From contig JAESQN010000043.1 of NCBI GenBank assembly GCA_016765135.1, positions 1 through 33,925 on the forward strand: DNA of 33,925 bases. Reading direction: 5' to 3'. The position numbers and the translations under genes are program-made. Below the pieces are notes generated by a model that saw only the letters and a program-made list of their open reading frames with translations, was not told the DNA's origin and ran no database searches. Positions 21,771 to 27,056 of this stretch are shown here, piece by piece. The first letter of the stretch is position 1. The number at the start of each line of letters is the position of its first letter. This stretch comes from Robiginitomaculum sp. Its GTDB lineage: Bacteria; Pseudomonadota; Alphaproteobacteria; Caulobacterales; Maricaulaceae.

Positions 21771-22265
21771 ATGGGTAAGCAGGATGTTCAGGACGGGCAA
21801 GTTGAATACTGGTTTTACCATTTGCAACAAAGCACGTTGGAAGCCGTCCTGCCGGATATTTTAGAAAAAACCCGCGCTAAAAATTGGCGGGCCTTAATCA
21901 AAATCGGCGAAACTTTCGGTGATCCGGGGGCCGAAATGGCAAGGCTTGATAAATTTCTGTGGACATACAAACAAGATGCTTTTTTGCCACACGGCAGGGA
22001 CGACGAACCTTTGGCCGAACACCAACCAATTTTGCTGTCTTGCACTTGCGAAAAAGCGGAGGGTATCGACGTGGTCATTCTGGTCGACGGGGCCGAAATG
22101 CAAGATGTATCCGCCGCCGAGCGGTGCATCACCATTCTCGACGGTCGCAACGAACAAGACAAAACCATAGCCCGTAAACGCTGGAAACAAGCCAACGATG
22201 CAGAACTAACTACGGCCTATTGGCAACAAGATGATCATGGCCGCTGGGTCAAGCCGGGGGGGTGA
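21771..22265 (+). CDS. holC: DNA polymerase III chi subunit
   Basis: HolC ties the clamp loader to SSB during replication. The protein has 164 residues. Chi-family features are EYWFYHLQQSTLEAVLPDILEKTRAKNWRALI near the N-terminus, LWTYKQDAFLPHGRDDEPLAEHQPILLS in the middle, and ARKRWKQANDAELTTAYWQQD near the end. The N-terminal extension before VEYWFYHL is a few residues longer than usual. The pepA-holC pairing is conserved. In relatives the ABC-F and ndk genes often come next; here they are delayed by the palindrome/arsR region. Confidence 0.93.
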   Translation: MGKQDVQDGQVEYWFYHLQQSTLEAVLPDILEKTRAKNWRALIKIGETFGDPGAEMARLDKFLWTYKQDAFLPHGRDDEPLAEHQPILLSCTCEKAEGIDVVILVDGAEMQDVSAAERCITILDGRNEQDKTIARKRWKQANDAELTTAYWQQDDHGRWVKPGG

Positions 22266-22429
22266 CAATGTTTTTCTTCATTACGACTAGGCCCGGCAAA
22301 ATATATGAAGTTTAGAATATTGTCGTTCATTACCGGGAGGCGGCAGGTGCATCTTACATCGACTTCTCTTACGAGATAAAAGGCTGTTTGATTGCGAATA
22401 AAATCATAGTCTTGAAGGTTGTATCGCAG

Positions 22430-22457
22430 ATTATCCTTGTAGCAAATTATCCTTGTA
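22430..22457. repeat. 12-nt tandem direct repeat
   Basis: ATTATCCTTGTA occurs at 22430-22441 and again at 22446-22457, a period of 16 nt. Confidence 0.9.
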
Positions 22458-22468
22458 AGCGTAGCTTT

Positions 22469-22491
22469 GTGATTAAGCCAAGATTAATCAC
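22469..22491. repeat. 8-bp inverted repeat
   Basis: GTGATTAA (22469-22476) and TTAATCAC (22484-22491) are perfect inverted arms around 7 nt. The pattern could be an operator; no gene is placed to use it. Confidence 0.7.
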
Positions 22492-22534
22492 CAAATGGTC
22501 GAAGGTCTATTTTCTTCATGAATCATTTATCCGG

Positions 22535-22616
22535 CCTATAACCATTTATCTATCCTATAAACCATTAAACTAATATATTAGTTTAATGGTTTATAGGATA
22601 GATAAATGGTTATAGG
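22535..22616. repeat. 82-bp perfect palindrome
   Basis: Every base from 22535 to 22575 pairs with its mirror from 22576 to 22616, with no loop. The central 24 bp (22564-22587, half-site ATTAAACTAATA followed by its complement) is identical to the centre of the palindrome at 23064-23101. Each arm also holds two related direct units: CCTATAACCATTTATC at 22535 and CCTATAAACCATTAAAC at 22554. A further CATTTATC at 22524 lies outside the perfect part. As RNA it would form a 41-bp hairpin and might end transcripts from holC or arsR, but no T-run follows. It is more likely a multi-site operator or an element end. Confidence 0.95.
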
Positions 22617-22715
22617 TGAATAGTTGGCAACATACCGTCTTGCGAGTGTGCCGGTTGTTTAGTGGGCTATACTTCTACACCGAAACTATGCAGTTCAGTC
22701 AAAATAAACCCGGTT

Positions 22716-23003
22716 TTATAAGCTTAGAAACTTCTGCGCTTGCTCCGCCTGGGCCAAATTTAGGGTGAGGACTGTCGCCGAGCCTTTGCTTTTCGCTTGG
22801 ATGAGACCACCTTTTTTCATCATTTTTAGGTGATGCGCCAGGCTTGGCTCGGCTATTTTGCAATATGTTGCCAAATCCCCAAATTTTAGCCCCTTTGCGC
22901 CCGTTTTTTGTAATGCAAGGAAAATGGCAATGCGCCTTGGGTGCCCCAAAGCATCAAAAAGCTGCGCTAATTCATCTCTCTGTCCAACCGAATAAGTATT
23001 CAT
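22716..23003 (-). CDS. ArsR-family winged-helix transcriptional regulator
   Basis: This is a 95-residue DNA-binding repressor. The winged helix shows LFDALGHPRRIAIFLAL, then the HTH at about 40-60 (FGDLATYCKIAEPSLAHHLKMMKKGGLI) and a beta-wing (AKSKGSATVLTLN). The ELCVCDL-type metal site of ArsR/SmtB is absent; Cys48 is the only cysteine, so metal sensing of the classic kind is unlikely. It looks closer to the SdpR/YgaV-like members. The start is the ATG at 23003, with GAGGGAG four nt ahead; an upstream in-frame start at 23027 is not needed. It is flanked by two palindromes with the same core. No target gene is adjacent, and its signal is unknown. Confidence 0.9.
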   Translation of the reverse strand: MNTYSVGQRDELAQLFDALGHPRRIAIFLALQKTGAKGLKFGDLATYCKIAEPSLAHHLKMMKKGGLIQAKSKGSATVLTLNLAQAEQAQKFLSL

Positions 23004-23037
23004 GAAACTCCCTCTGTTTTGACCCATTTACCAATCG

Positions 23038-23065
23038 ATTATACACGATGGAGACGAATATACAA
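23038..23065 (-). promoter_or_regulatory. arsR-family gene promoter
   Basis: On the minus strand, TTGTAT (complement of 23060-23065) and a perfect TATAAT (complement of 23038-23043) are 16 nt apart, about 35 nt ahead of the start codon. The 38-bp palindrome overlaps the last two bases of the -35 and extends upstream, a position suited to autoregulation. Confidence 0.65.
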
Positions 23066-23101
23066 TAACTATTAAACTAATATATTAGTTTAATAGTTAT
23101 T
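23064..23101. promoter_or_regulatory. 38-bp perfect palindrome, putative ArsR-family operator
   Basis: Bases 23064-23082 mirror 23083-23101 exactly. The central 24 bp (23071-23094) equals the core of the palindrome at 22535-22616, and the next base on each side differs (CT versus CC). It abuts the -35 of the regulator gene, so autorepression is the simplest reading. The stretch from 23102 to 23319 has no gene and no clear promoter for the lipoprotein gene. Confidence 0.8.
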
Positions 23102-23319
23102 TGCAATATTAGTGTTTATATTCTTGCGGAAGGACATCACAGAGCATCAACCAATGCACCAAGAGGGCATGCTGGACACTGAATTAACGATAGTTTAGGT
23201 TGTTCACTGCAATAAATCACCAAAACCATAAAAATAACCCGGACATTGGTTGCGATAACATGTGAACAGCTTTTAAGGTGGGATAGCGATTCGGTTTGAG
23301 AGTTAAAGGGAGCTTAGCT

Positions 23320-23799
23320 ATGCACGTATGGACGAATACAATAGTTTCAGCTCTTGCGTTGGTGCTTTTGTCAGCATGTTATACGCCCGGATCGGGTGTG
23401 CCAGGACAAAATCGCCGTCCCGGGCTTGGGCAATATGTGGTTCCTGTTAATCAGCGTCCGGAACCTACACGCCGTATTCCTGATGATGATTTATGCCGTT
23501 CGCGTTTGTTTTTGGGTTTGGTGGGGCAACATGAGGGCGGGATTGTATTTGCGGTCTTGCCAGGGCGCACCCGCGTGGTGAAGCCAGCGGAGCAAGAACT
23601 TGACCAGGACGAATTTTTGCAAGACACGCGCCCAAACCCGCCATTTGTCGAGGTGCGTGAATATCTGTCAGGGCAGGTGCTGCATGCGCCAGCCATCCGC
23701 GCCGTAAGTCGGGTCGATGAACTTGGCCCCATTATGCGTGACCGTTTGACCGTAGAGTTAAATGCGCAAGGTTATGTTAATCGTCTGACATGCCGTTGA
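23320..23799 (+). CDS. Lipoprotein resembling peptidase inhibitor I78 family
   Basis: This is a 159-residue predicted lipoprotein. The signal ends in the lipobox LLSAC with Cys20 followed by Tyr, so outer-membrane sorting is likely. The mature part begins DDLCRSRLFLGLVGQHEGGI, later has GRTRVVKP, and ends DRLTVELNAQGYVNRLTCR. This matches the I78 pattern of an early Cys and LVG, an arginine strand, then a RLNVELDxxGxIxRVxCG-like close. It has a longer middle (about 50 residues, from AEQELDQDEF through VDELGPIM) than compact I78 proteins. The start ATG at 23320 is supported by AAAGGGAG upstream. I78 proteins inhibit serine peptidases; whether this one does is unknown. Confidence 0.65.
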   Translation: MHVWTNTIVSALALVLLSACYTPGSGVPGQNRRPGLGQYVVPVNQRPEPTRRIPDDDLCRSRLFLGLVGQHEGGIVFAVLPGRTRVVKPAEQELDQDEFLQDTRPNPPFVEVREYLSGQVLHAPAIRAVSRVDELGPIMRDRLTVELNAQGYVNRLTCR

Positions 23800-26590: not shown

Positions 26591-26633
26591 AGCACGCAAA
26601 TCAAATATCACGCCTTAAATGAAGGAAATTCAC

Positions 26634-27056
26634 ATGGCACTGCAAAGAACATTTTCGATCATCAAGCCCGATGCAACCAAACGCAATATTACTGGCAAAA
26701 TCAATGCTGTTATTGAAGCCGCCGGCCTGCGTATTATCGCGCAAAAACGCATTCAAATGAGTGAAGACCAAGCCAAAGGCTTTTATATTGAGCACGCCGA
26801 ACGTCCGTTTTACGGTGAATTGGTTGAGTTTATGATGTCCGAGCCAGTTATTGTGCAAGTATTAGAGGGCGAGAACGCCATCAAACATTACCGGGGTGTC
26901 ATGGGTGCAACCAACCCGGCTGATGCCGATGCGGGCACAATCCGCGCCGAATTTGCTCTAAGCCTGGGTGAAAATAGCGCCCACGGTTCCGACAGCGAAG
27001 CTTCTGCCATCAGAGAAATCGCGTTTTTCTTTTCTGAAAACGAAATTGTTGGTTAA
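26634..27056 (+). CDS. ndk: Nucleoside diphosphate kinase
   Basis: This enzyme transfers the terminal phosphate between nucleoside triphosphates and diphosphates through a phospho-histidine. It has 140 residues, the standard bacterial length. [14 protein letters not shown] opens the fold, and the catalytic His117 lies in NSAHGSDS, with [15 protein letters not shown] before it. The start is ATG at 26634 with AAGGAA upstream; the frame begins five codons earlier without support. A bidirectional hairpin terminator follows. Confidence 0.98.

Follow-up and report, generated by a model that had tools for sequence, protein, structure and literature searches.

The window, by which we mean the whole 33,925-nucleotide stretch of DNA analysed here, belongs to a host that is known from environmental DNA alone and whose genome assembly comprises 2.87 Mb in 52 contigs. 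It carries a small regulator gene, arsR1, that is bracketed by two perfect palindromes, W1 and W2 (Table 1). Both lack a loop, and their arms are 100% complementary, measuring 41 + 41 bp in W1 (22535-22575 and 22576-22616) and 19 + 19 bp in W2 (23064-23082 and 23083-23101). The centres lie 507 bp apart and a 24-bp core, ATTAAACTAATATATTAGTTTAAT, is identical in both; the match extends to 32 bp with a single symmetric change, C..G in W1 and T..A in W2. On recomputation these values agree exactly with those of an earlier note on this DNA, which had described palindromes of 82 bp and 38 bp with a common core, and the gene coordinates bear out its placement of W1 100 nt past the arsR1 stop, at a point on which holC and arsR1 converge. 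The same note spoke of a holC-ndk interval. holC is indeed the neighbour on the left, but on the right the 167-aa frame comes first, and the frame at 26619-27056, which we take to be ndk, lies farther away.

Table 1. Genes, palindromes and further features of the arsR1 locus (positions in the window)
Feature	Position	Strand	Description
holC (DNA polymerase III chi)	21771..22265	+	left neighbour; Pfam DNA_pol3_chi
19-bp tandem repeat	22524..22566	+	2.2 copies; starts 11 bp to the left of W1 and extends into its left arm
W1	22535..22616	.	82-bp perfect palindrome; downstream of arsR1, between convergent holC and arsR1
W1 32-bp core AACCATTAAACTAATATATTAGTTTAATGGTT	22560..22591	.	
arsR1	22716..23027	-	103-aa winged-helix ArsR-family regulator with one cysteine; Pfam HTH_5
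W2	23064..23101	.	38-bp perfect palindrome; 36 bp upstream of the arsR1 frame
W2 32-bp core AACTATTAAACTAATATATTAGTTTAATAGTT	23067..23098	.	
Promoter-like match TTGCAA-16-TATATT	23079..23106	-	overlaps W2
167-aa frame	23296..23799	+	right neighbour; without Pfam or NCBIfam match

A chance origin of W1 and W2 is negligible. At the local base composition about 2e-5 loop-free palindromes with arms of at least 19 bp are expected per 2.87 Mb, and about 3e-18 with arms of at least 41 bp. Folding as single-stranded DNA gives z-scores of -16.20 for W1 and -7.39 for W2. The W2 region holds four promoter-like matches against a shuffle mean of 3.6, which is no excess. A terminator hairpin at either palindrome was rejected, the terminator scan of window positions 22200-23400 having given zero matches, and so was a known RNA family, as an Rfam search of 14 sources returned two tRNAs and RNase P and nothing on the palindromes. 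A 16-bp tandem duplication, GCAGATTATCCTTGTA, is found between holC and W1 (22426-22457).

The product of arsR1, which would have 95 aa if translation began at a second ATG at 23003, matches Pfam HTH_5 with 29.1 bits, above the curated cut-off of 22. Its structure model (pLDDT 82.2) predicts a fold of helices and a beta-wing as in SmtB and CzrA, and the best five Foldseek matches are ArsR-family chains (TMq 0.68-0.75). The matches to the NCBIfam families for the metalloregulator ArsR/SmtB (NF033788, 49.7 bits) and the autorepressor SdpR (NF033789, 38.3 bits) stay below the respective cut-offs of 55 and 100. Paired cysteines are the metal-site motif of the metalloregulator ArsR/SmtB subfamily. 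With a single cysteine in ArsR1, no cysteine that is conserved throughout the alignments of 8 and of 10 homologs, and the sub-threshold match to NF033788, a cysteine-pair metal sensor was rejected.

Palindrome families in the window genome and its relatives

A genome-wide search found six exact copies of the 24-bp core on five contigs, W1 and W2 included, and no further match in the genome with up to three mismatches; BLAST added a seventh copy, 8 bp longer, on contig C1. The reversed control pattern gave zero matches. Five copies of this family, which we call P1, lie elsewhere in the genome than W1 and W2 and have no arsR1 alongside. Among 60 relatives the core was found in none within three mismatches, and the exact core was found in no stretch of the viral contigs and none of the other genome contigs. 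The n=0 pattern does match in 32 viral stretches, in two cases with both strands matching at a single place, and none of the viral contigs matching the peptide patterns encodes a relative of ArsR1.

The window genome encodes three ArsR paralogs, each adjoining a palindrome family of its own (7, 10 and 5 sites). The P1 family beside arsR1 consists of the six exact sites and the longer one, and arsR2 adjoins 10 sites of the type ACTAAAYTRGTTTAGT, called P2 here. The arsR3 family, ACAAAACTAGTTTTGT, has two exact sites and three with one mismatch, in a pattern search whose reversed control gave one match, in G005. All 22 sites fall outside the called genes, in extragenic space. The gene caller had missed arsR1 and arsR3; with arsR1 restored by hand, which makes W1 convergent and W2 divergent, seven sites are co-directional, nine divergent, five convergent and one unclassified (nine, eight, four and one by the caller alone). 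At four P1 places the neighbours share no function: they are a glycosyltransferase, an HNH endonuclease, MarR, an M2 peptidase, an abhydrolase, an AMP-binding enzyme and a trypsin/PDZ protease.

The P1 copies align with one another over the palindrome only, for 32-58 bp, and a MITE or transposon with a common element body was rejected for P1 on this ground. The P2 copies and the elements of G006 have about 50-200 bp of common sequence beyond the core. In several P2 copies (L135 and others) part of the outer sequence is shared with the first codons of arsR2, ATGATAAACGATAA; it looks as if the start region of arsR2 with its promoter had been the source of these copies, or the copies the source of that region. 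G006 has a dispersed element of roughly 200 bp (L144, L136, L104, L106) that encloses the palindrome; between its copies the outer sequence is common and the arms are different.

Six of the 14 genomes surveyed within the genus encode close ArsR relatives (59 bits or more), ten genes in all: three in G000, which is the window genome, two each in G007 and G006 and one each in G002, G003 and G008. All ten have a palindrome or a related motif at their own promoter. Seven show perfect arms of at least 11 bp with a loop of at most 4 within about 125 bp upstream and three a related motif. In G002 the motif of arsR1 is an imperfect repeat at 99-134 bp upstream; the G003 gene is preceded by an array of TTTTCTAG with the caps TAAACTAG...CTAGTTTA, and the G008 gene by a palindrome core beside N letters. 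For arsR2 the start codon falls within the right arm in G000 and G007, and a 38-bp palindrome there is identical across both species. Of the weaker ArsR hits, 1 of 18 (L087) has a palindrome upstream, unrelated in sequence, two of the 18 being cut off by contig starts. P1-like sites with sequences of their own exist in G006 (TAAATTAGTAAACTAATTTA, three sites) and G007 (TAAATTAGTATACTAATTTA, two sites); when one mismatch is allowed, the loose n=1 pattern yields reversed-control matches too, up to four per genome.

The arsR2-type pattern occurs in 4 of 79 family-drawn genomes, all four with close ArsR homologs, against zero for the reversed control in the 79, and it is absent from G002, a carrier of arsR1. 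That genomes lacking the gene also lack the sites is thus only partly shown, the ArsR subfamily having been sought in a minority of the genomes of this survey and of the n=0 survey described below. Sites of the TTTTCTAG type are present in G006, where arsR3 was not found, and in G004, where only a fragment of an ArsR homolog was found. G002 has arsR1, yet its one imperfect repeat is the sole site of such a kind seen there. The spacing between half-sites would, by our reading, shift in 8-bp steps (-2, 6 and 14). The 8-bp unit forms arrays in G003, G004 and G006. Two sites, the seventh P1 copy and the imperfect repeat of G002, have a spacing of 14 bp where others have 6 bp, which is unexpected for a dimer of fixed geometry.

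Several further arrangements were seen in these genomes. TTTTCTAG arrays with the caps TAAACTAG and CTAGTTTA recur in G003, G004 and G006 (L120/L127, L116, L104, L106, L112, L113, L115, L117); one precedes arsR3 of G003, and another is flanked by seemingly GTA genes in G003 and G004. The named genomes are MAGs, in which hairpins can break assemblies, and in several the capped arrays lie near contig ends. Two frames of 183 and 187 aa in two species (L110:1365-1916 and L118:1430-1993), alike in one segment and without a Pfam family, both end just short of a palindrome. In G007 a tandem array of the 9-bp unit taggctggt stands upstream of the palindrome of arsR1 (L063). What seems to be the same intergenic place, between the same two genes, holds different palindrome sequences in L253 (G000, C10) and L105 (G006, C24).

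The association extends to distant carriers. All four distant ArsR relatives (L129-L132) have a CACTAAACTGGTTTAGTG-type site upstream, with outer arms that are short or imperfect in some. A tree sets 14 relatives, the ten of the genus and these four, apart from five other ArsR proteins with support 95/93, long branches being flagged. The gene and a related palindrome stay linked in these relatives. Queried with the protein of a distant carrier, a set of 385 genomes from the class gave matches at E<=1e-8 in five: the window genome with its three proteins, and four more whose matching frames are 155-343 aa long. The distant carriers G109-G112 have 8, 9, 9 and 10 sites, all with at most two mismatches (36 in the set, an extra exact G111 site at C22:268812 lying outside it), and the reversed control gave zero. 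Among 100 genomes from the family of G111, the exact n=0 pattern, which is of the arsR2 type, was found in G111 only, at 8 places, with one reversed-control match, in G157. Of the ten G112 sites eight, including that of arsR itself, have a partner at an orthologous place in G111, among them sites at gatC-, rsmB-, rlmH- and GTA terminase/portal-like loci, to go by names read from translations; one common site lies between convergent genes (L188, L196). The aligned stretches at these places are 79-90% identical and the cores nearly identical. Keeping the core across this distance points to selection, and we therefore treat the G111 and G112 sites as working sites.

Arm complementarity and the origin of the sites

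Outside the core the arms differ between copies and are mostly complementary within a copy. For positions 17-31 of the six exact P1 copies, 64 of 90 cells match within copies against 158 of 450 between copies (p=0.0015 by random re-dealing), and over positions 17-41 only 2 of the 720 dealings of the right arms, the true one included, reach the observed value. Re-dealing of positions 9-20 gave 0.0005 for G110, 0.00035 for G112, 0.013 for G111 and a weak p=0.10 for G109, the orthologous sites of G111 and G112 not being independent in this test. The result for P2 is weak as well (p=0.045), and P1 positions 13-16 (0.20) and P2 positions 9-14 (0.29) are not significant. At the rsmB-like sites G111 and G112 have unlike arms, each pair being perfectly complementary.

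A protein dimer alone cannot make unlike arms match, so we infer either a requirement for a hairpin or cruciform or copying by fold-back. We favour fold-back copying, judging from the sequences: the arm length varies freely, W1 is crossed by the 19-bp tandem repeat at its left edge and not at its right, and template switching is discussed for a like case in excerpts of a study of mitochondrial repeats (PMC6649704). The tandem repeat may mean that the right arm of W1 was synthesised on its left arm as template. Together with the GTA-like site of G112, it gives a hint, and only that, of one arm having been copied from the other.

Comparison with sister genomes bears on the age of the sites. G002 has an arsR at the corresponding locus, preceded by a related imperfect inverted repeat, and the stop codons of arsR and holC are 73 bp apart there, compared with 450 bp here; W1 therefore looks like a later addition. 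At the P1 places on contigs C25, C31, C46 and C1, the corresponding stretches between genes in G002 and G007 lack the palindrome. For C31 the intergenic lengths are alike and no clean insertion is seen, while C25, C46 (seen in part) and C1 have about 100-230 bp of additional DNA, more than the palindrome alone; C38 falls outside the comparison, its trimmed alignment starting beyond the palindrome. Given the G002 locus and the palindrome-free sister sites, W2 is probably an old operator, and W1 and the four P1 copies are probably gains in the window lineage, losses in the sisters being less likely. Two readings offered in the earlier note lose ground here. The movement of a self-contained cassette as one piece is not supported, given an arsR at the same locus of G002 with only a short gap to holC, and five copies elsewhere without the gene; the same two observations make an operator left behind after the loss of its target unlikely.

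A proposed role and its alternatives

We think it fairly probable that a small autoregulating ArsR protein binds the palindromes, with W2 as its own operator and W1 as a later extra copy. ArsR1 sites are the most likely identity of the palindromes given the dispersed family around the gene and the relatives with related palindromes of their own. An ArsR1 dimer would bind the AAACTAAT/ATTAGTTT dyad, and W2, at the arsR1 promoter, would let autoregulation set the protein level. This binding and the repression at W2 are predicted from sequence; the motif upstream of the ten genus and four distant homologs fits the suggestion of the earlier note that the upstream copy is an autoregulatory operator. 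W1 and the five other intergenic copies would be extra sites, gained in the lineage where a comparison could be made (W1 and four of the five). Binding would keep the core palindrome intact, with fold-back synthesis acting on the core, and the outer arms would stay complementary through this fold-back (template-switch) DNA synthesis and not because selection favours a hairpin.

The extra sites may act on adjacent promoters, but a role at promoters only is not well supported by the mix of co-directional, divergent and convergent contexts and the functionally unrelated neighbours. Classical repression does not account for sites between convergent genes, and with 5 of the 21 classified sites in such a context, as well as one site common to G111 and G112 (L188, L196), the sites may do something else, as the third reading of the earlier note has it. 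Titration of the protein or the marking of chromosome positions are possible roles.

The palindromes could instead be REPIN-like mobile extragenic hairpins, copied by an enzyme that is coded elsewhere, with arsR having acquired copies or using one as its promoter region. Excerpts of the REPIN literature describe both compensatory changes and adjacency to RAYT genes (PMC3116915), and mobility would suit the 22 extragenic sites, the four other P1 places whose gene neighbours in G002 and G007 are the same without the palindrome, and the sequence shared beyond the core by the P2 sites and the G006 elements. We nevertheless regard this as unlikely. Each of the three paralogs adjoins its own palindrome family and the link recurs in distant carriers, the P1 copies are alike over the palindrome only, and near-identical cores at orthologous positions would not be expected of idle repeats. 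The gene between W1 and W2 is arsR, adjacency of the REPIN/RAYT kind having been examined at this locus only.

Two other explanations appear less probable still. ArsR might mark dispersed positions as a chromosome-organising protein and regulate transcription at its own gene only; MatP/matS and SlmA are the models for such sites. Unrelated neighbour functions, convergent sites, 5 to 10 sites per family and genome and places kept across species would all agree with this, but we consider it improbable for so rare a gene, since a short-frame ArsR match at E<=1e-8 is found in the window genome only of the 385 class genomes; the assemblies are contig-level, which bears on the position of sites along a closed chromosome. 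RNA hairpins acting as terminators or mRNA stabilisers, with the complementarity of the arms kept by selection on RNA folding, would explain arms that differ in sequence and still pair, and W1 does sit between convergent genes. This seems very improbable, however, when 9 of 21 classified sites are divergent (arsR1 restored), when neither the terminator scan, limited to the region given above, nor the Rfam search put a match on the palindromes, and when the central TG of the GTA-like site is on the gene strand in G111 and G112 and on the other strand in G109.

A bolder extension of the binding-site reading is that regulator and palindrome act together to spread and maintain the sites: binding at a perfect dyad would promote or protect fold-back synthesis, so that each paralog keeps a separate set of sites that match one another. 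We offer this as a speculation that ranks a little below the REPIN-like alternative. If it were true, the pair would amount to a genomic symbiont of the REPIN kind, partnered by the gene of an ordinary DNA-binding protein and lacking a transposase, and new palindromic sites with locally copied arms would arise at intergenic places. Three paralogs with three palindrome families, together with the lineage-specific families of the sister genomes, offer a natural series for studying how protein and site change together, and arms that change and stay complementary allow one to ask whether binding protects or promotes the formation of palindromes by template switching. The sites between convergent genes challenge the default reading of repressor palindromes as promoter operators.

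Comparison with known systems

Core sequence strings have no match in the open-access literature searched, and within that literature we did not find this regulator-palindrome system in print. NolR of rhizobia is a global regulator of the ArsR family with several AT-rich sites, which are short and imperfect. The likeness lies in the ArsR fold, NolR structures being among those matched, and in the several AT-rich sites, whereas the sequence match is distant only (E 6.9e-4) and the palindromes here are neither short nor imperfect.

Among ArsR-family autoregulators, Rv2034 of M. tuberculosis has, according to excerpts of its description, a palindromic site in the promoter of its own gene, and five further promoters contain potential sites (PMC3338718). 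It resembles ArsR1 as a small dimer with an own-promoter palindrome and further potential sites, and its binding persists when the spacer is doubled from 4 to 8 bp (PMC3338718). The motif given in those excerpts consists of two 8-bp repeats with a 4-bp spacer (PMC3338718), in contrast to perfect palindromes of up to 82 bp here; compared with what they describe, the arms here vary in concert and the paralogs have separate dispersed families.

REPINs and their RAYT genes, as portrayed in the excerpts (PMC3116915), share with our families the short extragenic palindromes, dispersal, a gene nearby and compensatory changes of the arms. They differ in that the gene here is a DNA-binding regulator without a nuclease domain, that there are 5 to 10 copies per family, and that P1 is one AT-rich palindrome instead of two REPs with a spacer (PMC3116915). 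Perfect inverted repeats in the mitochondria of nematomorphs have arms that remain identical while the sequence changes between species, for which the authors discuss template switching and repeat conversion in the excerpts of their paper (PMC6649704). Those repeats lie within protein-coding genes, and the same excerpts mention no associated binding protein (PMC6649704), unlike the extragenic palindromes described here with their probable binding protein.
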